Origin: a virus
DNA length: 64,000 nucleotides
Strand: one strand, 5' to 3'
IMG/VR virus record: IMGVR_UViG_3300046810_000322
Span: 1 to 64,000 of that record
Position numbers and translations under genes: made by a program. Of the stretch, positions 9,634 to 63,129 are shown piece by piece (within the stretch, counting starts at the first letter, position 1; every line of letters starts with the position of its first letter). Under the pieces are notes generated by a model that was not told where the DNA came from, ran no database searches, and saw only the letters and a list, made by a program, of their open reading frames with translations.

Positions 9634-9682
9634 GACGGCATACACTCCCTCTACCCAAAAGGGTAGAGGGAGCTATGTCGAC
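9634..9682. terminator. bidirectional hairpin with TATGCCGT-type flanks
   Basis: A perfect 12-bp stem, CTCCCTCTACCC at 9645-9656 and its complement at 9661-9672, has an AAAA loop and lies between convergent genes. On the plus strand the stem is followed by CTATGTCGAC; on the minus strand it is followed by TATGCCGTC (plus-strand GACGGCATA at 9634-9642). There is no U-tract. It is one of at least ten similar elements in the window. Confidence 0.7.
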
Positions 9683-26390: not shown

Positions 26391-26435
26391 CCATAGCTCC
26401 CGCTACCCCTTCGGGTAGCGGGAGTGTATGCCGTT
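26391..26435. terminator. bidirectional hairpin with TATGCCGTTA tail
   Basis: A perfect 12-bp stem, CTCCCGCTACCC at 26397-26408 and its complement at 26413-26424, with loop CTTC, followed by TGTATGCCGTTA. The identical 12-base stem sequence is used again at 41365-41391, 15 kb away. Located between convergent genes. Confidence 0.7.
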
Positions 26436-33157: not shown

Positions 33158-34978
33158 ATGTCTCGTGTAACTAAACTTCAGCGCCGAGAGAGAACCAATG
33201 CCCGTGCAATCCCAGGAACGTTGACGTTTAACGCTCCCGGGGTCGCTGTGCTCAAGTATGGTAAGTCACACATACTGGTCTCTGGTACTGGCGCGCCAGG
33301 CGGCGCAGCAACGCCGGGTAATGCAATCTATAACCCGGTTGTTCCTGGCACCGTCTCCGGCACCAATCCAAACACCCCAGGCAATGTCAGTGGGTACAAC
33401 CCTGTCATCCCTGGGAACGCGAATTACAATCCCAGCAATGGCGGTAACGCGAATTACAACCCGGATTCTGGCGGCAACTATGCCGGAACAAATCCAGGGA
33501 CGGGCGGTAACGTAGCGGGTTACAACCCCATCACTCCTGGTACCCAGTACACCAACACGGGGACGTACACCCCTGGTAATTATGTCCCTGCAAAATACAC
33601 AGCAGGCACGAGTTATCAAAATCCTGCCACGTTCACTCCGGGTAACTTGGTCCCGGCGTCGTACACTGCCGGAACGAGCTACCAGAATCCGGCGACGTTT
33701 ACTCCTGGTAATCCATACACGAACCCATCGACCTATACGCCTGGCAACACCAACGCCGGCTATGACGATGAAATGCACACGGGGTATGGTACTCCGTGTC
33801 CTGGTGGCTGGAGTTTTGCTGGGTATGACATCAATGAACTTGGTAAGCCGGAGCGGATCTGTGTGATCTACTACCCAGGTAACACCAACCCTGGAACTTA
33901 CACTGCTGGTAACAACGGCACCAACCCAGGCACGACGACTCCAGGTAATGGTGGATCTAACTCTGGCACATACACTCCGGCGTATTACAATCCAGGGACC
34001 ACAACACCTGGCAATGGAGGGTCCAATTCCAGTACGTACACCCCCGCCTACAGTAACCCTGGGTCTTATTCACCAGGGTCCACTGGTTACAATCCAGCAA
34101 CTGGCGGCAACCCCACCTACAATCCACCCGTAGCTGGCAACCCGTATTACAACCCGTATGTCCCAGGAAACATCTCTGGTTACAACCCAGGTAACCCTGG
34201 CAATGTGGCTGGTTACAATCCAGATAACGGGGGTAACGCGACATACAACCCAGTAATACCAGGAACGGCGAATTATAATTTACCAACCCCGGGAAATGCT
34301 GTGTATAACCCGACAGTCCCTGGGAATATCTCCGGTTACAATCCGCCGAGTGGTGGAAATCTGATCGGATACAACCCAGACTCGCCTGGGAACTATGCTG
34401 GTGTGAACCCGCCGGGCGGTCACACGGTGGCAGGATACAACCCACCTACTGGTGGAAATGAAGCCTATGCCAATGGTAGTGCAACGATTGTGGTGACAGG
34501 TCCTCCGGGTAACGCAGCTGCGTCACCAGAGTACTATACCTACACCACCTCGTCATTGTTTGCGCCCACCACAACGTATTACGTGGACAACGCCAATGGC
34601 AACACGTACTACGCGCAGTTCAATGCCGACGGCACGAACTACAACCCATCTCAGCCTGGTAGCGCGAACTACAATCCGGTAATTCCGGGTGAAGCTTATT
34701 ACAACCCAGGTAACCCAGGGAATGCTATTTACAGTCCGGCTGTTCCAGGTACTGCGAATTACAATCCTACGGTTCCGGCAGCTGCAGCGTATAACCCGCC
34801 GACAAGCGGCGCGCCATCAGCTCCCTTCACTGTGTTGGGCGTCACGTTCCCAGGTTCGACCTCTGGTACACCTGGAAGTTATGTGGCAGATCGTCTGGTC
34901 GAAGTACCTTACTCGGCCAACGGCGTAGCAATCCCGGTAGGACCTGGAGCACAAGTTGTTGTGAAACAGCAGTTCTAA
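33158..34978 (+). CDS. YNPxxPG-repeat fibre-associated protein A (606 aa)
   Basis: An N-terminal basic segment (RRERTNAR) is followed by about 520 residues built on a repeated unit of nine to eleven residues, roughly GYNPxxPGN or NYNPxxGGN, with about 20 YNP copies and many x-Pro-Gly triplets. A second repeat type, SYQNPATFTPGN, occupies the middle, and a Cys-containing segment (CPGGWSFAGYD) interrupts it. The C-terminal 55 residues form a conserved cap shared with the paralogue at 39014-39940. The composition suggests a rigid polyproline-II or polyglycine-II like rod used as adhesin or fibre stalk. A prolyl-hydroxylase-like gene lies 29 bases downstream. ATG at 33158 with AAGGTAGGG upstream. 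Confidence 0.75.
   Translation: MSRVTKLQRRERTNARAIPGTLTFNAPGVAVLKYGKSHILVSGTGAPGGAATPGNAIYNPVVPGTVSGTNPNTPGNVSGYNPVIPGNANYNPSNGGNANYNPDSGGNYAGTNPGTGGNVAGYNPITPGTQYTNTGTYTPGNYVPAKYTAGTSYQNPATFTPGNLVPASYTAGTSYQNPATFTPGNPYTNPSTYTPGNTNAGYDDEMHTGYGTPCPGGWSFAGYDINELGKPERICVIYYPGNTNPGTYTAGNNGTNPGTTTPGNGGSNSGTYTPAYYNPGTTTPGNGGSNSSTYTPAYSNPGSYSPGSTGYNPATGGNPTYNPPVAGNPYYNPYVPGNISGYNPGNPGNVAGYNPDNGGNATYNPVIPGTANYNLPTPGNAVYNPTVPGNISGYNPPSGGNLIGYNPDSPGNYAGVNPPGGHTVAGYNPPTGGNEAYANGSATIVVTGPPGNAAASPEYYTYTTSSLFAPTTTYYVDNANGNTYYAQFNADGTNYNPSQPGSANYNPVIPGEAYYNPGNPGNAIYSPAVPGTANYNPTVPAAAAYNPPTSGAPSAPFTVLGVTFPGSTSGTPGSYVADRLVEVPYSANGVAIPVGPGAQVVVKQQF
33310..34830 (+). repeat. degenerate tandem repeats coding YNPxxPG units
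   Basis: In-frame imperfect tandem repeats of about 27-33 bases coding for YNPxxPG/YNPxxGG units. Copies differ at many third positions, so selection acts on the protein. The part near 33590-33740 includes two nearly identical longer repeats of about 66 bases coding SYQNPATFTPGN. Confidence 0.8.
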
Positions 34979-39013: not shown

Positions 39014-39940
39014 ATGACGACATTAGCTGCTAAAAAGCGGCGTGAGCGAACTAATACGGGGCGGAAGACCCCGTCCCAGACCTTTAACCCGCCGGGCGGT
39101 ATCTATCGTCCGGTGTTTGGTAAAGCAATCATCTTCATCTCTGGGCACGGTCAGCCGGGTAACGCACCAGCTAACCCCAGCGTCGCATACTACAACCCCA
39201 ACACGGGTGGTAATGTCGCTGGGTACAACGCCACCATTCCGGGTAACATTAGCGGGTATAACCCACCTCAGCCAGGTAATTATGCTGGCACGTATGAACC
39301 AGGCGGCGGTAACCTAGCTGGTTACAATCCGTCCACTGGTGGCAACCTGTCAGGATACAACCCAACGGTTCCTGGTGCGGCTGCCTACAACCCACCACAG
39401 CCAGGACAAATCGTCTATACGGAATTTGGTGGTCCGAATCCGCCAGCGCCGACGACGTATGAGTCTGCCTACTTCACCATATCGCCATTCTCGTTCTACA
39501 ACAACAGTAACGGGAATTACGGGAACGTGAATGTAGATCGACCAAGTGGCTTCTATGTATCAGGGAACCGGTACTACACCCCTGGTACTGGCGGTAACGC
39601 GAATTACAACCCTGGCGTGCCTGGCAATGCCAACTACAATCCGTACAACGAAGGGTATGATTACTACAACCCGACGCAACCTGGCAGTGCGAACTACAAC
39701 CCAGGGAGCGGTGGCACGGCAAACTACAACCCGGTAGTACCTGGCAATGCGGTGTACAACAACTACATTGCCGGTGTAGCTGGTTCGCCATTCAATGCCT
39801 TGGGTGTGGCTTTCCCAGGGGGTGCGATTGGTACTCCAGCCCCAACAATTGGCCGCACCATGGTGGAAGTAGCCTATACTGCCAGCGGCGTTCCTATCAC
39901 CATGCCACCAGCTTCGGTGGTCGTAATCGAGGAAACTTAA
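39014..39940 (+). CDS. YNPxxPG-repeat fibre-associated protein B (308 aa)
   Basis: A shorter paralogue of the 606-residue repeat protein. Basic start with KKRRERTNTGRK, then ten YNP units (GYNPxxPGN, NYNPxxPGS and similar) split by a 60-residue insert rich in Tyr/Asn/Ser, and a C-terminal cap (ALGVAFPGG, MVEVAYTASGVPIT) matching the other protein. It probably forms a shorter rod. The different lengths of the two suggest repeat number evolves by unequal exchange. Confidence 0.75.
   Translation: MTTLAAKKRRERTNTGRKTPSQTFNPPGGIYRPVFGKAIIFISGHGQPGNAPANPSVAYYNPNTGGNVAGYNATIPGNISGYNPPQPGNYAGTYEPGGGNLAGYNPSTGGNLSGYNPTVPGAAAYNPPQPGQIVYTEFGGPNPPAPTTYESAYFTISPFSFYNNSNGNYGNVNVDRPSGFYVSGNRYYTPGTGGNANYNPGVPGNANYNPYNEGYDYYNPTQPGSANYNPGSGGTANYNPVVPGNAVYNNYIAGVAGSPFNALGVAFPGGAIGTPAPTIGRTMVEVAYTASGVPITMPPASVVVIEET
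39170..39760 (+). repeat. degenerate tandem repeats coding YNPxxPG units (module B)
   Basis: In-frame imperfect repeats of about 27-33 bases coding YNPxxPG/YNPxxGG units, the same family as at 33310-34830. A non-repetitive insert at about 39410-39580 divides the array. Confidence 0.75.
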
Positions 39941-41402: not shown

Positions 41403-42038
41403 TCAATAACGTCGACTTGGTATATCCGGAAACCCGTAACCGTACCGGGGCGGCTCGAAGTGCCCAGTCAACCCTGCGCCAATCAGAACTGTTGCAATCT
41501 TATCAGCTTCTACAGGAGTCAATTCTAAGCCCTTAACCTTTACAACCATTTTAGACAAGTGACTATTGTTGGTCATGTTAGAAAAGTTTCCTTGGCCAAA
41601 CCCCATATTTCTTAATTCAATTGCAAAGGATCTGGCCTCTTCCTCGGTAAATGCGACGTTCTTGATTTTTATATCCAACGTCAATAACGGAACATCCTGA
41701 ATTAATGGCGAAAAGATTCGTTCAGTCCACCCCGCTGGAGGCAAGGGAGGTCCGCACAATTCTGGTCTGCCAGCTTTCTTTTTATCTGTTGGCATCTTTA
41801 TCCCTTTCCTTAGAGTGTATCGACACACACCTTCTTTTCCTCCGATGCGGGTGACGGTGAACCAACCTTGCTTAGTGTGGAGCGTAGAGATAACGCCAGC
41901 TATAGTCGCTTCATTAAATCCAAAGCCCTGTAAGTGCATAATGACTTCAGCCTTGGAATAAGACTTGAAGTCACTCATCGCCTTCCAAATGCACCGTCTG
42001 AGGGAGTCTGTATGTAGTAAGTTGAACTTCCCTATCAT
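41403..42038 (-). CDS. single winged-helix protein with C-terminal motif shared with the four-domain paralogue (211 aa)
   Basis: An N-terminal winged-helix-like unit (CIWKAMSDFKSYSKAEVIMH to CRYTLRKGIKMP) matches the four units of the protein at 45913-47784. The C-terminal 80 residues (VAFTEEEARSFAIELRNMGFG) match that protein's C-terminal domain (VEYSMADAKELAAELFDNGFG). So it is a one-unit paralogue. DNA binding is a reasonable guess. The gene is visibly more A+T-rich than its neighbours, which may indicate more recent acquisition. ATG at 42038 with GTGAGA upstream is preferred to a GTG start. Confidence 0.65.
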   Translation of the reverse strand: MIGKFNLLHTDSLRRCIWKAMSDFKSYSKAEVIMHLQGFGFNEATIAGVISTLHTKQGWFTVTRIGGKEGVCRYTLRKGIKMPTDKKKAGRPELCGPPLPPAGWTERIFSPLIQDVPLLTLDIKIKNVAFTEEEARSFAIELRNMGFGQGNFSNMTNNSHLSKMVVKVKGLELTPVEADKIATVLIGAGLTGHFEPPRYGYGFPDIPSRRY

Positions 42039-42050
42039 CGCAGTTCTCAC

Positions 42051-43515: not shown

Positions 43516-44223
43516 TTAAACGCCCAGGGTGTAGCCTTTTTCAGCCATTGCGATATCCAGCTGATGGACTTCCGACAACGGCATGATGAGCTTCAACTTG
43601 GTGACGCTTTCGCCATCGATCTGAGTGATGTACATGGCACCGTTGTTTTGTAGCTTCTTGATGATTGCTGGATCGAGGTTCAGATTCTCGAGGCGGTCTT
43701 CTTCCGAGTACATACCGAAGTACAAGCCGCTGTCTTTCATGGCCTGCTCCAGATGTGCCCAGCCACCCGGACCCATGCCGATCATGCGCATGACCTTGGT
43801 TTTATCCAGCTTCACTAACTCGCCGTAATTCTCGACATCGCCAGAGTGACGCAGTACGTTAATAACACGCAGCGGCAGATCCAGACAGTCAATCCTGCGA
43901 GCAAGGAACAACTCGATAGGGCTTTGTTGAACAGGCGCCGCTTCTGGGAATACGGCGTTCAGTTCCAGTTTCACACCCAGCGCGTCGAGTGCTTCCAAGA
44001 ACAGGTTGAACGTCATAGCCGCCATCATGAACATGGCGGTAGCGGTGGCTTGGGTAGCTTCCCCAGCACTCTTCAGTTCCGGATGCTTTTGCATCAGGTA
44101 CGTGCGGATCTTTGCAACGTAGTCTTCGTCGGAGACATTCATCTCCTTACGAATGCGCTTAAGGATGCTCTCGAAGTCGAACAGGTTGTTGTCCGACGAC
44201 AGGCTGGTAAAGATTTTGTTCAT
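43516..44223 (-). CDS. protein with tandem RNAP alpha-CTD-like domains (235 aa)
   Basis: Residues about 110-171 follow the alpha-subunit C-terminal domain pattern closely: IDCLDLPLRVINVLRHSG, then YGELVKL and GLYFGM, in the order and spacing of bacterial alpha-CTD (LELTVRSANCLKAEAI, IGDLVQ, GLSLGM). Residues 179-235 look like a second, more divergent copy (LNLDPAIIKKLQNNG to KGYTLGV). The first 100 residues are helical and unrecognised. Alpha-CTDs bind DNA and transcription factors; phage examples could recruit or modify polymerase. It lies in the accessory minus-strand block. Confidence 0.65.
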   Translation of the reverse strand: MNKIFTSLSSDNNLFDFESILKRIRKEMNVSDEDYVAKIRTYLMQKHPELKSAGEATQATATAMFMMAAMTFNLFLEALDALGVKLELNAVFPEAAPVQQSPIELFLARRIDCLDLPLRVINVLRHSGDVENYGELVKLDKTKVMRMIGMGPGGWAHLEQAMKDSGLYFGMYSEEDRLENLNLDPAIIKKLQNNGAMYITQIDGESVTKLKLIMPLSEVHQLDIAMAEKGYTLGV

Positions 44224-45872: not shown

Positions 45873-45904
45873 ACGGCATAGGGAGCGGACCTCGGTCCGC
45901 TCCC
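45873..45904 (-). terminator. hairpin with TATGCCGTAA tail
   Basis: A 10-bp stem, GGGAGCGGAC at 45881-45890 and its complement at 45895-45904, lies just after the stop of the multi-winged-helix gene. Read on the minus strand, it is followed exactly by TATGCCGTAA. This is a same-strand boundary, showing that the box follows the stem in the direction of transcription. Confidence 0.65.
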
Positions 45905-45912
45905 AGTGTCAA

Positions 45913-47784
45913 TTATGCTGCGGTGTCAACTGGTTCTTGGTAGATACCAGCATTTTTCAAACCAACGGCGAGTTGGTTGGCTTCGTCAGCGGAGAACTGC
46001 GTGTCGCCGATCGAGAAGGCGACCTTCAGGAACTTCGACTGACGAACATTGGTCGTCGATGCCTCAGGGTGGCCGAAACCATTGTCGAACAGTTCAGCTG
46101 CCAGTTCCTTAGCGTCAGCCATGGAATACTCCACGCCCTTGATGAAGACGGGGATGTGCAGCAGCGCCACTGGTTGAGCTTTTGGAGCAGAGTCAGTTTT
46201 CTGGTTTGCCACGGGTTCATCCTTTTGTTCGAGGTCGATGGTTTGTTGCACGGGTTCTGCTGGAGCAGCTTTCTTTTGTGCAGCTTTGATGGTAGCGATT
46301 TCGTCAGACACCGCTTGGCGAGCGCGTTCGGTTGCAGCAGCGCGTTCGTCAGCCGCTGCCTTGTCAGCGTCGACCTTCTCGTTCCACTTGGCGAAGTCGG
46401 TAGCACTAGCGTCGACAGCTACTGGCATCGGAACTTCAGCCCGCAGCGTATAGACATACTCGCGGGTCTTGTTGTTCTTGTTCAGCTCGCGGTCGAACCA
46501 GGTCTTTTCGCCCATCCTGGCCAGCACCGAGATCCTGGCTTTGATGCTGCTAGGATTGAACGGGAAGTCCTGCATCAGCAGAACCACTTCGCCGGAAGTG
46601 TACTGCTGGCGATCGCTCATGATCTTCCAGATGGCGATGTCCAGCGTATCGCCAGGAACAACTGGAGGATGACCGGCTGCTACCACCACTGCTTCCGTAA
46701 CCACAACTTCTTCAGCGGCCGGCTCGTTGCCATTGGTGGGCGCCAGTTCCTGATGCAGCGCGCCATTGGGGCTTTGGGTATCGCCCCGCAGTTGACCACT
46801 TTCTTGGTAGTAGTGGTGACGCCCGTTTTTGCCACTTGGCGCCGTAGCCGTCAGCGTAACTGGTGCGCTAACTGGCCGGGTGACACGGATGCCGTCAGGG
46901 GACAGTTTGGTCTTGAGCACTTCAGGATCGGTCGGGATGACTTCCGGCATCTTGATATGCTTTTTCATCGTGTACACGCTGTCGAGAATACCGCTGCCGT
47001 GGAAGTCGAACCATTTCAGGTTAACCTTGGCACGCACGAAGCTGTCCTTGGCTACTTCACGGTTGATACCATAGGCGCCGAGGATGTCCAGGATCTGGTT
47101 CTGGGTGCGGCCTTTACGGTCGCTGACGACTTTCCACAGGCACACCATCATGCCTTGGGTTAAGTCAAGAACACCGGATGGGTCCATGCCTTGCAGGGCG
47201 GACATTGGTGCACGTGGTTTGCCAATTTGTTTTTGTTGATTAGGGGATGGCATGGTGCTACCTTTCTTGAGGGTGTAAATGTTTTCGCCGGACTTGCTGT
47301 CCGGGATGGTGGTGACGAAGCCGTTGGTCAGCATGATGCGCAGCATCTGCTCGACTTCGTCGTCTTCGATCGATGCGATGTTCTTCAGCACTTTGATTAC
47401 ATCAACCGTAGTACGGCCTTTGTAATCAGTCATGACTTTCCAAACACTTGCCAATGCGTCGTCGGCTTCCGTAATACCGAAGTTGACCTTCGGTTCTTCG
47501 ACAACGACTGGATCGTCCTGTACCGGCAATTCAGGACGCTTGACATCGCGAATCAGCGTGTAAGTCAAGTTACTGCGACGACCCGTGCGGTTGAACCACG
47601 ACTTCGCCATCAAGGTATCCAGACGCTTATCGGCAACACCGCGGTTATAACCACGGCTACCGAGAGTATCCAGAATCTCTTTGGCATCGCGTTTCTTGAA
47701 ATCGGACATCAGATCCCAGATGCCAATGTCAATCTTTTTAGGATCGATTGCATCAATGCCGGCTACACGAGTTGGACTTGCCAT
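45913..47784 (-). CDS. four-unit winged-helix protein (623 aa)
   Basis: Four copies of a unit of about 70 residues, at roughly 17-83, 108-179, 212-280 and 380-455, each beginning with IWDLMSD, VWKVMTD, LWKVVSD or IWKIMSD and ending with a YTLxxxxxMP-like strand; the spacing and the final beta-hairpin fit a winged helix-turn-helix. Units are joined by Pro/acidic linkers. An Ala/Lys-rich helix near 460-540 is followed by a C-terminal domain (VEYSMADAKELAAELFDNGFG) shared with the one-unit paralogue at 41403-42038. It probably binds DNA at several sites. The ATG at 47784 has AAGGAG upstream. Confidence 0.7.
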   Translation of the reverse strand: MASPTRVAGIDAIDPKKIDIGIWDLMSDFKKRDAKEILDTLGSRGYNRGVADKRLDTLMAKSWFNRTGRRSNLTYTLIRDVKRPELPVQDDPVVVEEPKVNFGITEADDALASVWKVMTDYKGRTTVDVIKVLKNIASIEDDEVEQMLRIMLTNGFVTTIPDSKSGENIYTLKKGSTMPSPNQQKQIGKPRAPMSALQGMDPSGVLDLTQGMMVCLWKVVSDRKGRTQNQILDILGAYGINREVAKDSFVRAKVNLKWFDFHGSGILDSVYTMKKHIKMPEVIPTDPEVLKTKLSPDGIRVTRPVSAPVTLTATAPSGKNGRHHYYQESGQLRGDTQSPNGALHQELAPTNGNEPAAEEVVVTEAVVVAAGHPPVVPGDTLDIAIWKIMSDRQQYTSGEVVLLMQDFPFNPSSIKARISVLARMGEKTWFDRELNKNNKTREYVYTLRAEVPMPVAVDASATDFAKWNEKVDADKAAADERAAATERARQAVSDEIATIKAAQKKAAPAEPVQQTIDLEQKDEPVANQKTDSAPKAQPVALLHIPVFIKGVEYSMADAKELAAELFDNGFGHPEASTTNVRQSKFLKVAFSIGDTQFSADEANQLAVGLKNAGIYQEPVDTAA

Positions 47785-47949
47785 TACACGCACTCCTTTA
47801 CTAAGTTGTACTTCATTGAACATCCTCTTATTGATTTTTGATGCTTGAGTTGTGAGACCCAAGTGATGATGAAAGTAAATAGATTTCAAATCTACTTAGA
47901 TGCAAATGCATCGATAAGGGCCGCTGAGGACCCTTGCCGCTACACTCGC

Positions 47950-48333
47950 TTACAGGTAAGTGACGTCGGTGATTGGCGTCATTTTCCAACCGTCCATCCA
48001 ATTAGCCGGATCGTTGTATGCCGCGATTGCTGCTTCCAGCGTACGGTATGTCTTCAGTTCGATTACGCCGCCAACTGAGGTACTGCACAAATGCGCAACG
48101 CCGTCTTCGTCAACGTACATGCGGTTCAGACAGAAGTAAGTCGTCTGTTCTTCGCTCAGAAGGAATACAGTGTGATTGCCGAAGCGTGCAATTGCATATG
48201 GCTTACGGAGGCGATCAACCGCTTCCTTCTGACCGGCGCGATGGTCGTCTTCTACCAGTCCGTCATTGGCTTTGATAGCAGCCAAGACAGAGTCGAAGTC
48301 AGTTGCTTTGATACCAGGGTTGCGTGTGTTCAT
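47950..48333 (-). CDS. unknown protein (127 aa)
   Basis: No family recognised. Two-part soluble protein with a strand-rich centre (RFGNHTVFLLSEEQTTYFCL) and a C-terminal helix. The ATG at 48333 has CAAGGAA upstream. It is preceded by an A+T-rich stretch with TATATAG and AATATAG strings, a possible promoter. Confidence 0.55.
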   Translation of the reverse strand: MNTRNPGIKATDFDSVLAAIKANDGLVEDDHRAGQKEAVDRLRKPYAIARFGNHTVFLLSEEQTTYFCLNRMYVDEDGVAHLCSTSVGGVIELKTYRTLEAAIAAYNDPANWMDGWKMTPITDVTYL

Positions 48334-48430
48334 GGTGGTTCCTTGTAGTTGATTATTGTAACGAAATGAAAGCATCTCCATTCCAATTCACAGCAGTTAT
48401 ATAGACCTGAGATTTTCTATTGCAATATAG

Positions 48431-48474: not shown

Positions 48475-49098
48475 TTAGGTCATCCAGGACAACCATGCTG
48501 GAAGACGAGACTTGGTGCCTCCCGTGGTCTTTTCTTTCTCGCGCTGTTCCTTGTGCTTCTCCGTTTGGTCGATATGGTAGTCAACCAAATTAACGAAGCA
48601 TTCTTCAAAGTCAACAGCGAAAACCTTACGACCATCGTAGTCGTGCCAGTAGTGTACGATCTGACCGATCTTACCGCCAGGGGCAGGGTCGAGGTCGATC
48701 ACCAAGTAATCGCCGCTTGGGTTAGCAAAGATAGGAATCCATTTCGGGTTCCACCATACACTCTTCACACCCTTGTCACCGACACCTTTATAACCTGGTT
48801 CGTCTTCGAGATCGCCGTTCAAAGTCTCCCAGGCGTCAATCACTTCAGTAATCGACATGGGTTCCCAAGGACCGAACTCGAAGTTGGCTACCGGTTTAAC
48901 ACGATAGCTGTCTGCACCATTGTGCATCTTCAACCACTCCACGTACGAAATGGGAAGACGGTGAGGCGAAGGTAACTTCTTCTCCAGCACTTGGATGTCC
49001 TTCATCGTGGCCGGCGGATTGAGCGCTTCCAGATCGCGCGCATTGTTTGCCTTGTAATACGCTTCAATCTTGGCAAAGGCTTCGCGGATCTTGCTCAT
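48475..49098 (-). CDS. SMI1/KNR4 (SUKH) family protein (207 aa)
   Basis: Clear SUKH-1 pattern: LNPPATMKDIQVLEKKLP, then ISYVEWLKMHNGAD, WNPKWIPIFANPSGDYLVID and LDPAPGGKIGQIVHYWHDYD. In bacteria SUKH proteins are best known as immunity proteins against contact-dependent and polymorphic toxins; in phages the role is unknown. The gene is translationally coupled (4-base ATGA overlap) to the CYTH-like gene upstream. The C-terminal 30 residues are a charged helix. Confidence 0.8.
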   Translation of the reverse strand: MSKIREAFAKIEAYYKANNARDLEALNPPATMKDIQVLEKKLPSPHRLPISYVEWLKMHNGADSYRVKPVANFEFGPWEPMSITEVIDAWETLNGDLEDEPGYKGVGDKGVKSVWWNPKWIPIFANPSGDYLVIDLDPAPGGKIGQIVHYWHDYDGRKVFAVDFEECFVNLVDYHIDQTEKHKEQREKEKTTGGTKSRLPAWLSWMT

Positions 49099-51752: not shown

Positions 51753-51770
51753 GATTTCGTTCTTTACAGG

Positions 51771-52655
51771 TTAAACCCCGACAAGATTGGGGGAGCCGTT
51801 AACAACCGTGACGTTTGTCTTGAACAACGGTTCGGTAGCGCCGATGTCCATGCTGAAGGTAGTGCCGTCCGAGTTAAACTGGAGTGGCGCACCGACGTTG
51901 ACCAGGTCGTTGACTTGGACAGCAATCGCTTCGAGCATGTTGAAGGCGGAACCGCCCGGGTCGGTGATCTGAACTTGCTTGTCGATGCCGGAGCACAGAG
52001 CCAGTTCGGAGATGATCGCCGCATTCGGGTTGTTGTAGATGATGTTGAACACGTTCATCAGCTCTTCAACATCGTTCGTGTCAAGGATGACATTGATCGG
52101 TGCGGAAGCGCTGACGTACGTGCCGTCGGCGGTGATGACGCCAGGGTTGCTAACAGCGGGTGGTGTAGGGTGCAGTACCGATGAGTCGGGGACGTACGGT
52201 ACGGTGTTCTTCACACCATTGACCACCGTGGTATAAAACATACCAGCCTGGATGTTGGTCTTGTCGATGCGCTTCAGGTAGTACGCGATATACGGTACGC
52301 TGTTGCGGGTTTCGATGCGACGCAACGCATACTTGGCACGATCGGCGGGAGCCAGATCATTGCCCAGCGGACGAAGGATCAGCGGGATGGGGCGGTAAGG
52401 CGCTGCCGAGGTAGCTTGGAAGATCTTTGGCGACATCACCAAAGCGCCATCGCCACTCATGTCAATGTCCAAACCGCCGTTACCCAGACTGAGGTAACCC
52501 AGCTTCGGATACACACCGGCGTCAGGGATTTGACCTGCTTGAACGCCCAGCAGCTCATTCAGCGTCGTATTCGCCGCCAGTACAAACGGAATGCCCAAAT
52601 GCGCGCATGTCTGCAAATACATTCCATACACGGTCCGGGTGGTTTTTTCAGCCAT
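51771..52655 (-). CDS. probable virion structural protein (294 aa)
   Basis: Beta-rich protein without recognised domains, located between a large structural gene and the late-gene cluster and presumably part of the tail or baseplate. It is followed by an 18-base gap to the RuvC-like gene. The ATG lies in an 8-base overlap with the end of the GIY-YIG gene, which has inserted itself between this gene and the 792-residue structural gene. Confidence 0.55.
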   Translation of the reverse strand: MAEKTTRTVYGMYLQTCAHLGIPFVLAANTTLNELLGVQAGQIPDAGVYPKLGYLSLGNGGLDIDMSGDGALVMSPKIFQATSAAPYRPIPLILRPLGNDLAPADRAKYALRRIETRNSVPYIAYYLKRIDKTNIQAGMFYTTVVNGVKNTVPYVPDSSVLHPTPPAVSNPGVITADGTYVSASAPINVILDTNDVEELMNVFNIIYNNPNAAIISELALCSGIDKQVQITDPGGSAFNMLEAIAVQVNDLVNVGAPLQFNSDGTTFSMDIGATEPLFKTNVTVVNGSPNLVGV

Positions 52656-53235
52656 TATTAGCCTCGTTAATTTCAGATTGATTGATCATGGCTGCCTTCT
52701 TAGCTGCCTTTGTCGCTTTTACCTTCGCCGCAATTTTCGCTTTAGTTTCATCGCTGTGCTTGAAATCTTTTCTAGCCTCAACAACCTTAGCGATATGCTC
52801 TGCAGACTTTGGCTTGCCTTTGAGGCTGTCGGAAATAGCCCTAGCGTGTTCTTCGGAATGAGAACGGCCTTTTCTTACATCGCTCATCTTTCTTTTGGTT
52901 TCTTCACTGAGAGGAGTGCCGGCACGAGATTTGTTGATATCTCCTACTCTCGCAATTCCCAATGCGTTTACCATTTTTGGATTATTACGATGTTGATCAA
53001 GAAGCAGTTGTTCTAAATCATAAGCCCGTTCCCGGTTACCAGAAGGAATCTTTGCAATGGAAATACCTTTATCGCAGTTGTATGCTTCCTGGAACTCTTT
53101 TGAGTGATGCAATCCAGATTTAAGGGTAGATCGATGTGCTGATTCGCGTGCCGCCAAGTCGCCACTACTGCCGACATAGAAGAGACCGGTAGCTTCATGA
53201 GTGATCACATAGGCACCGGGTAACTTTTCTGCCAC
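52648..53235 (-). CDS. GIY-YIG homing endonuclease with NUMOD3 motifs (195 aa)
   Basis: The N-terminal 90 residues have the GIY-YIG pattern (GAYVITH, LFYVGSSGDLAARESAH). The C-terminal half has two to three repeated NUMOD3-like motifs (SEETKRKMSDVRKG, SEEHARAISDSLKG) typical of DNA-binding tails of free-standing homing endonucleases. The ending is Lys/Ala-rich. It is visibly more A+T-rich than the structural genes it separates, consistent with a mobile gene. GTG start with AAGGA upstream. It overlaps the next gene by 8 bases. Confidence 0.85.
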   Translation of the reverse strand: MAEKLPGAYVITHEATGLFYVGSSGDLAARESAHRSTLKSGLHHSKEFQEAYNCDKGISIAKIPSGNRERAYDLEQLLLDQHRNNPKMVNALGIARVGDINKSRAGTPLSEETKRKMSDVRKGRSHSEEHARAISDSLKGKPKSAEHIAKVVEARKDFKHSDETKAKIAAKVKATKAAKKAAMINQSEINEANNG

Positions 53236-61452: not shown

Positions 61453-63129
61453 TTACCTTTCAATGAGCGCTTGCGCATGATCAAACGTATCACTGAAATT
61501 GGGGTTACGGAGAATCACATTGTCCAGCGTCAAGCCAACAAACGGATTGATGCGGAAATGTCCCGATGGTTGAGACTTAGGAAGATTGGCATACCCGCCG
61601 ACTTCGACGACGGAGATGTGCAATTGGTTTATCGGGTCGCGCAACTGTAACCCGCCTTTCTTCCGGCTCATCTTGTTGGTGTGCTGCTGCGGCACCAACA
61701 AGGTCGTGATCTTCATCACTTTGTTGTCACCCGGGTAGCTGTTAGCCGACACAGCACCAGAGGACTTGTAGATATGGAAGATCGCCCCCGTCCGGATATG
61801 GTTACCGAATACGTGGTTGATCTTGTCTGGAGTCAACGATTGTTCCTCGCAGAGCTTGAGCATACGGAAGCCCAATTCCATGATGGCCTTGCTGATATCG
61901 AACAGAACGAAGTACAACACGTTCAGTTCTTTATCGTACATCGAGGACAGCTTCTTCCGGTTGGCCAGCAGCATTGGATCGAAATCCTCCACCATACGTG
62001 CGAACAGCTGATACACGTTGTTGACCTGGTAGCCAATGTTCTCGAGCTGCTCGCGCACGATAGGATCGATGTACTCGTCCAACGAACGCATGTGGCTTTC
62101 CATTTCCTTGAGCACCTTGCCAACACCAGAGCTTGGCGCCACCAGATGGCCGAGGATCAGAATCCACAGTCGCTTCTCATCGGTCAACTTCACTGCGTCC
62201 TGGTTGATGACGTAGTTCGACAGATGGTTCACGCGTTCCGGGAAGCGGTCAGCGATGTAGAAGAATGCACCGATCAGGTTGTGCGTCATCGCATTCATCT
62301 GATCTTTCGGCACCGCAATACGGATGTTGGTTGGCCGGTAGTTGTCGTTGTTACGACCTGCCGGTGCGCCGTTGTCCGAGTTACGGGTAGTGCGTGCGAT
62401 GAACCACTGATCAGGTGGATACTTCTCGCGGGTGATGTTCTCGGCGTCGCCGACCACCACATCGCACTTGGCAAACTCCTGGAACGTCTTGATGATGCCG
62501 TACTTGCAGAACAAGTAATGCGCCAACGTCGATTCAGCAGTGACGTTGTCCGGATCAGTCTTATCCCGGACCACTTTCTTCTGGTGGATCTTCGACCACA
62601 CGACGTGTGCAAAGGTCTCGCTATCATCCAGGATAAAGTGTTGCGAGATACGATTGATGTTGAAGCGGGTCTTGATCAATCGTACAAAGATGGTCTTGCG
62701 CATCACCGAGATCACACGGTCCGCCAACACAGGAGAGATTGTGTAGCGCGAATCGCTGATGGTGATGAAGCCACCGTCAGAGACGAACGGCAGATACAAG
62801 TACCGCGGCCGCAGTTTAACACCGTTGTATTCGAATTCATAACGCATCATGTACACGTCGGAACGTGCGATGTCGTACGAAGAACGCTGGCTGGTTTTAG
62901 TTGCTTTTTGGTTGTGCCGTTTGGTCGCTTCGATGTACTCTTCCCGTGGCGAGCAGCGGACGCCACGGATGAATTTCAGACCCGGTGGAAAGGTTTCGGT
63001 GATCGACCGGAACAACATATCCACGTAACGCTCTGCCTTCGGTATCTCAGAGACCGCGAAACCATCCGCAATCTTCTTATTGAACTTTGGCATGTCTTCT
63101 TTGATAAATGCCCGCAATGCTGGGTCCAT
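61453..63129 (-). CDS. RNA polymerase beta-subunit N-terminal-like protein (558 aa)
   Basis: Residues about 111-138 (LYLPFVSDGGFITISDSRYT followed by ISPVLAD) follow the beta-lobe pattern of bacterial RNAP beta ([20 protein letters not shown]). Near 492-533, GLQLRDPINQLHISVVEVGG and SQPSGHFRINPFVGL resemble the RDVHPTHYG / ETPEGPNIGL region. The sequence would be the N-terminal half of beta as a separate protein, as in phiKZ-type virion polymerases, whose beta N-terminal fragment is gp178 (from memory). The gene order around it supports this. It is a by-eye assignment. ATG with AAGGAG upstream. Confidence 0.5.
   Translation of the reverse strand: MDPALRAFIKEDMPKFNKKIADGFAVSEIPKAERYVDMLFRSITETFPPGLKFIRGVRCSPREEYIEATKRHNQKATKTSQRSSYDIARSDVYMMRYEFEYNGVKLRPRYLYLPFVSDGGFITISDSRYTISPVLADRVISVMRKTIFVRLIKTRFNINRISQHFILDDSETFAHVVWSKIHQKKVVRDKTDPDNVTAESTLAHYLFCKYGIIKTFQEFAKCDVVVGDAENITREKYPPDQWFIARTTRNSDNGAPAGRNNDNYRPTNIRIAVPKDQMNAMTHNLIGAFFYIADRFPERVNHLSNYVINQDAVKLTDEKRLWILILGHLVAPSSGVGKVLKEMESHMRSLDEYIDPIVREQLENIGYQVNNVYQLFARMVEDFDPMLLANRKKLSSMYDKELNVLYFVLFDISKAIMELGFRMLKLCEEQSLTPDKINHVFGNHIRTGAIFHIYKSSGAVSANSYPGDNKVMKITTLLVPQQHTNKMSRKKGGLQLRDPINQLHISVVEVGGYANLPKSQPSGHFRINPFVGLTLDNVILRNPNFSDTFDHAQALIER

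Follow-up and report, generated by a model that had tools for sequence, protein, structure and literature searches.

The gene at 45913-47784 (minus strand) of the window, which is the whole 64,000-nt stretch analysed here and lies within a 71,267-base IMG/VR fragment, encodes a 623-aa protein with four serial winged-helix units and a two-copy C-terminal domain. With moderate confidence, it is taken to be an early, multivalent winged-helix DNA-binding regulator that belongs to one subgroup of phiKZ-like (chimallivirus) jumbo phages and acts on phage transcription.

A gene for four winged-helix units

The ORF is a genuine gene, which starts with an ATG at 47784, has the Shine-Dalgarno sequence AAAGGAG 8 nt upstream and has homologues in other phages. 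The parts of its product and the related gene in the window are as follows.

45913-47784 (minus): multi-winged-helix protein P0003; ORF with AAAGGAG, homologues in FLC9 and IMG/VR contigs
47530-47730 (minus): unit 1, type B, an extra N-terminal unit compared with three-unit relatives (HMM, AlphaFold2, tree)
47245-47451 (minus): unit 2, type A, recognition helix of net charge -4, doubtful DNA binder (HMM, AlphaFold2, H3 charge)
46942-47148 (minus): unit 3, type B (HMM, AlphaFold2, tree)
46420-46641 (minus): unit 4, type C (HMM, AlphaFold2, tree)
46276-46401 (minus): long helix predicted at residues 462-503, after unit 4 and before the C-terminal domain (AlphaFold2, pLDDT ~62-68)
45934-46161 (minus): C-terminal domain, two beta-beta-alpha copies (~46063-46152 and ~45934-46020)
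41403-42050 (minus): one-unit paralogue, combining one type C unit with the C-terminal domain, ATG probably at 42038

Four diverged units of 65-74 aa each were located by HMM at residues 19-85, 112-180, 213-281 and 382-455. An out-of-sample HMM, built from the units of other phages only, scored window units 1-4 at 40.7, 40.4, 35.9 and 53.6 bits and the paralogue at 57.3 bits, while the best of 1000 shuffled controls reached 4.0 bits. The reading of four related units joined by linkers, made in the initial annotation, is thereby confirmed and is exact for the window (36-54 bits with this independent HMM). The motif given there, with (I/V/L)WK(V/I)xSD at the start of each unit and YTLxxxxxMP at the end, holds in outline, but unit 1 has IWDLMSD and ends in YTLIRDVKRPE without MP, and unit 3 has YTM. 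Unit 1 shares merely 17-34% pairwise identity with the other window units, so the repeat is old.

The C-terminal domain consists of two copies of ~30 aa, each predicted to form strand-strand-helix, and is indeed common to the 623-aa protein and a one-unit paralogue, the latter being 41403-42050. A second, one-unit copy is found only in the window; each relative has a single gene of this family, and in the relatives the C-terminal domain occurs once per genome and never without units. An in-frame ATG lies just before this domain at L007:9147, at equivalent positions in the related loci L008-L011 and at L004:9207, preceded by AAGGA in L007 and L009-L011, and is a possible internal start yielding the tail alone. 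Such a start is not claimed here, as the Shine-Dalgarno sequence does not stand out in strength among those of other in-frame ATGs and the window does not have it.

Structure prediction, proposed in the initial annotation as a check, returned a winged helix for all four units (AlphaFold2, VIA-align and Foldseek). In the AlphaFold2 model, made with an alignment of nine relatives, every unit folds as H-H-H-beta-wing-beta with block pLDDT of ~70-89 (for unit 1, H15-26 H34-43 H48-60 E64-67 E74-77, pLDDT 72-88), the linkers are predicted to be disordered (pLDDT <50) and the relative placement of the domains is undefined (pTM 0.23). VIA-align matched Bacillus Fur (Z 11.3, rmsd 1.5, 67 residues aligned), Hop2 (Z 10.9, rmsd 1.2, 63 residues), BlaI (Z 10.3, rmsd 2.7, 73 residues) and MecI (Z 10.2). 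Both the 623-aa protein and the paralogue have the winged-helix topology H1-(S1)-H2-H3-S2-wing-S3, with Z of 9-11 to many wHTH proteins; AlphaFold2 and VIA-align gave the same picture for the paralogue, which matched PadR/VanR, Zur and BlaI. By sequence alone, the unit profile matched the BlaI DNA-binding domain (1p6r, E 5.8e-5). The structural match lists of the full proteins are filled by the winged-helix part and not by the C-terminal domain, for which a sequence search of the PDB gave nothing significant (best E 0.077); a larger profile (A5) gave a noisy PDB list that included repeat proteins.

The winged-helix fold is widespread, and phages are known to encode regulators that have it. Winged helices are also often protein-protein modules, so the fold alone is no proof of DNA binding, and protein-binding examples (cullins (WHB), COP9, ESCRT-II and RPC62) are indeed among the structural matches. 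From the predicted fold we infer that the 623-aa protein binds DNA. The initial annotation called multi-winged-helix proteins of this size unusual in phages, which is only partly right; other phage proteins in BFVD match several units, for example one of 700 aa over 661 alignment columns.

The family is found in one subgroup of phiKZ-like phages

Among 50,697 phage records the sole relative was gp217 of Burkholderia phage FLC9, whichever member of the family was used as query, and the window protein shares its family features, namely serial A, B and C units (described below) and the two-copy C-terminal domain. IMG/VR added nine contigs with relatives when an alignment was used as query; pattern scans of IMG/VR that used a single sequence, either the window protein or its paralogue, gave no relative, and neither did bacterial and archaeal genomes, with 133 pattern matches. 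Profile searches of the whole records of LucasX, FLC6, SNUABM_54 and PA1C found neither the unit nor the C-terminal domain, and phiKZ gave one weak, partial unit match (25 positions, E 0.03) and no C-terminal domain; the family therefore cannot be a core transcription factor of chimalliviruses. Neither Pfam nor PHROG was found to have a family for this group of proteins, which have two to four units plus the tail and an early promoter and occur in one chimallivirus subgroup, and the family is undescribed in the open-access literature searched, including among the winged-helix proteins of jumbo phages.

Placement of the window near phiKZ is provided by 61453-63129 (minus), an nvRNAP beta-type subunit that matches 269 phage records, phiKZ relatives (FLC9, 41%), and tail, virion and UvsX-like proteins agree with it. 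The 71-kb fragment has no chimallin gene; the syntenic contig G009 (271 kb) has one (E 1e-13), as do FLC9 and the contigs G001 and G003, and the fragment likely belongs to a nucleus-forming phage. G001 (IMGVR_UViG_3300043754_000129) has two chimallin-like genes, at 80177-81508 (E 5e-27) and 51769-52956 (E 2.5e-13). In the syntenic locus of G009 (L015), the family gene occupies the same slot as in the window, with up to 76% identity for the flanking genes and 23% for the family protein. L015 also lacks, or conserves poorly, several further genes of the region, so the region is variable and fast change is not unique to this gene. Furthermore, the 20-44.5 kb stretch of the window has no DNA-level relative in the phage records.

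Other genes of the window were also noted. The same gene run as 45913-47784 contains a GIY-YIG/NUMOD3 homing endonuclease (52648-53235, minus) and a SUKH (SMI1/KNR4) protein (48475-49098, minus). In-frame tandem repeats of ~10-11 codons (GNxxYNPxxPG-like) occur at 33380-34767 and 39209-39732, within ORFs 33158-34978 and 39014-39940, which lie near tail-fibre-like genes.

A phiKZ-type early promoter lies upstream

The following features flank the gene.

48389-48412 (minus): phiKZ-type early promoter, TCTCAGGTCTATATAACTGCTGTG, one mismatch to consensus
47950-48381 (minus): small gene (ORF) between the early promoter and the multi-winged-helix gene, likely ATG ~48333, no clear family
47880-47894 (no strand): perfect palindrome, TAGATTTCAAATCTA, ~100 bp upstream of the start codon
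45881-45904 (minus): perfect hairpin with 11-bp arms, ~9 nt after the stop of 45913-47784, probable terminator or 3' end

Alignment of the upstream regions of FLC9 and L008-L011 uncovered an island, TCAGCCCTATATAAC..G.GTGAGA, that fits the published early-promoter consensus sequences of phiKZ-like phages, which have been given for phiKZ (TATATTAC), 201phi2-1 and N1M2 (PMC7058600). The search pattern TTTCARNNNTATATWACNNNNGTG, with up to 3 mismatches, found 28 forward and 2 reverse sites in phiKZ as a control (3 and 0 for the reversed pattern), in agreement with the 28 early promoters of phiKZ (PMC13282480), albeit by count and not site by site. In the window a single site was found, that at 48389-48412 (shuffles give 0.28 sites at <=3 mismatches), one gene upstream of 45913-47784 and with 47950-48381 intervening on the same strand. 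A perfect site (0 mismatches), TATATAAC, precedes gp217 of FLC9 by ~70 bp. Sites with 2 mismatches stand immediately upstream of the family gene in L008-L011, and in L015 a site with 1 mismatch is found ~2 kb upstream, separated from the gene by ORFs on its strand; L012 and L013 have no match. Since such sites lie upstream in FLC9, L008-L011, the window and L015, the gene is probably early and transcribed by the virion RNA polymerase. Sites of this type are strongly strand-biased in FLC9, G001, G003 and G009, with 7-14 sites per genome at <=3 mismatches in FLC9-like phages; those in LC667451.1 include 143937, 180190 and 193506.

The initial annotation had offered the repeated hairpins of the window as operators for this protein. 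Their positions do not bear this out and the idea was rejected: the perfect hairpins at 9645, 17262, 26397, 30519, 37844, 41365, 45881 and 58641 all lie near gene ends, most of them, the long intergenic ones included, just beyond stop codons, several are between convergent genes and one comes after the stop of this very gene. Those at 26397 and 41365 have the form CTCCCGCTACCC-loop-GGGTAGCGGGAG, and three share CTCCC(G/T)CTACCC. The perfect hairpins are probable terminators that lack a clear T-run, and the transcription unit may end at 45881-45904. The palindrome at 47880-47894 is a possible candidate for an autoregulatory site; it is one of 63 in the window with arms of at least 7, so it could be due to chance, and as a repeated operator it was rejected because the window has no second exact copy. 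No operator for the 623-aa protein was identified.

Unit types and recognition helices

A tree of 23 units, in which short sequences give modest support, sorts them roughly by position into three types. Type A takes in window unit 2 and the unit that comes first in three-unit phages, type B window units 1 and 3 and the second unit of those phages, and type C the last unit and the one-unit paralogue. The order is A-B-C in the three-unit relatives (FLC9 gp217 and eight IMG/VR contigs), B-A-B-C in the window and B-C in the syntenic L015, the B unit of which groups with window unit 1 (support 89/85). Alignment with homologues, proposed earlier as a way to look for variable unit number, thus recovered proteins of two, three and four units. 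A recent tandem duplication, the sense in which the architecture could first be read, was rejected on the low identities between units and the conservation of unit types across phages; judged from these sequences, the differences in number seem to reflect old unit types being gained and lost.

A conserved and basic recognition helix is confined to type B, where mean pairwise identity is 50% and R/K residues (DKRLDTL, DRRLDTL) are followed by WF(D/N)R; the identity drops to 32% once window unit 3 and L015 unit 1, two B-like units that have diverged further, are added. In types A and C mean identity of this helix is 22-23%; type A helices are neutral to acidic, and several of type C are neutral or acidic. 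Charge and conservation make nucleic-acid binding through H3 and the wing plausible for type B and doubtful for type A, and suggest that the B units read DNA while the other units mainly make other contacts. The earlier proposal of a protein reading several operator sites is weakened accordingly: type B alone keeps a basic, conserved recognition helix, and four operator readers is an overstatement, given the net charge of -4 in unit 2.

Alternative readings and a model

An early promoter and a winged-helix fold would also suit a host-directed early factor that binds or coats the host chromosome and shuts off or redirects host transcription. RAY gp094, which binds host DNA (PMC10299810), is a precedent, and a looser one is T7 Gp5.7, which is small and winged-helix-like and represses promoters of the host RNAP (PMC5569994). 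This reading is doubtful, as conservation of the type B recognition helix from phage to phage suggests a specific site.

The acidic recognition helix of unit 2 and the resemblance to RPC62, cullin WHB and ESCRT-II raise the prospect of a scaffold or inhibitor, such as a polymerase-binding or anti-defence factor, that works through protein contacts and binds little DNA or none. In keeping with this, type C units vary less in the H1 motif IWKxMSD than in H3 (68% vs 23%) and the protein is poorly conserved compared with its flanking genes in a variable region. It is nevertheless unlikely, given the basic, conserved H3 of type B and the fact that the best single-unit matches are bacterial DNA-binding repressors.

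Quite unlikely is an architectural role, raised in the initial annotation as organising DNA, in which several weak DNA-binding units would bridge or arrange the phage DNA inside the early vesicle or nucleus; the disordered linkers, the varying unit number and the basic character of most units (pI 9-10) would fit, but a basic character is absent from unit 2 and from some C units, and the family was not found in most of the chimalliviruses tested, which organise DNA too.

Improbable, finally, is an early-made specificity factor that lets a chimallivirus RNA polymerase use middle promoters, which phiKZ nvRNAP does not transcribe in vitro, an alternative form having been proposed (PMC7598289); in subgroups of the family, multi-winged-helix proteins would then serve as adaptors with a unit number that follows the layout of the promoters, perhaps in concert with an alpha-CTD-like neighbour. 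That neighbour, 43516-44223 (minus), is syntenic in G009 (L015:9819-10541) and resembles the RNA-polymerase alpha-CTD-like domain PF03118 (E 1.1e-9 in L015; 0.0011, below cut-off, in the window gene). It is of note since the polymerases of this phage group are said to have no alpha subunit (PMC7598289), and it hints that the surrounding genes are concerned with transcription, in line with the preferred reading below.

For an early regulator of phage transcription, the preferred reading, the following model is proposed. Virion RNA polymerase would transcribe the gene early from the phiKZ-type promoter, so that the protein is made before the nucleus matures. The basic, conserved type B unit or units would most likely read DNA, while types A and C and the two-copy beta-beta-alpha tail probably add contacts (protein partners, self-association or avidity), with disordered linkers as tethers. 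The protein would most likely tune phage transcription as early promoters give way to the nvRNAP programme. Further factors have been postulated for transcription in nucleus-forming phages (PMC7618050), and FLC9 gp217 provides a cultured example of a probably early-transcribed multi-winged-helix candidate for its ordering. Moreover, the series of two, three and four units offers a natural test of unit number against binding.

Comparison with known systems

FLC9 gp217 (BDD79736.1, hypothetical protein) is homologous over its length and has the same C-terminal domain, but it carries three units where the window protein has four, shares 26-28% identity with it and has no common neighbour genes within 8 kb. 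The DNA-binding domain of BlaI/MecI (Penicillinase_R, PF03965) has a winged-helix fold like the window units; BlaI has one winged helix with a dimerisation/cleavage domain, whereas the window protein has several units and another C-terminal domain. PF03965 gave no match above its gathering score for the window protein, and 17.7 bits, below the cut-off of 22.6 and over profile positions 8-62 of 115 only, for FLC9 gp217. PHROG 2030, a 'transcriptional regulator' by annotation, weakly matches one unit (E 3e-4 for the window, 1e-4 for FLC9), with the match covering only positions 14-88 of 202.

Serial winged helices like those of the 623-aa protein are found in RPC39 and RPC62 of RNA polymerase III and in TFIIIC, winged-helix transcription-initiation proteins that were the top multi-domain Foldseek matches (RPC39, E 6e-5). 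They are eukaryotic and superpose per domain only (overall rmsd >16 A), and the likeness is one of fold, not kinship. Among phage proteins, T7 Gp5.7 is likened by description, as a winged-helix-like protein acting on transcription (PMC5569994); it differs in being a 7 kDa single domain that acts on host RNA polymerase.
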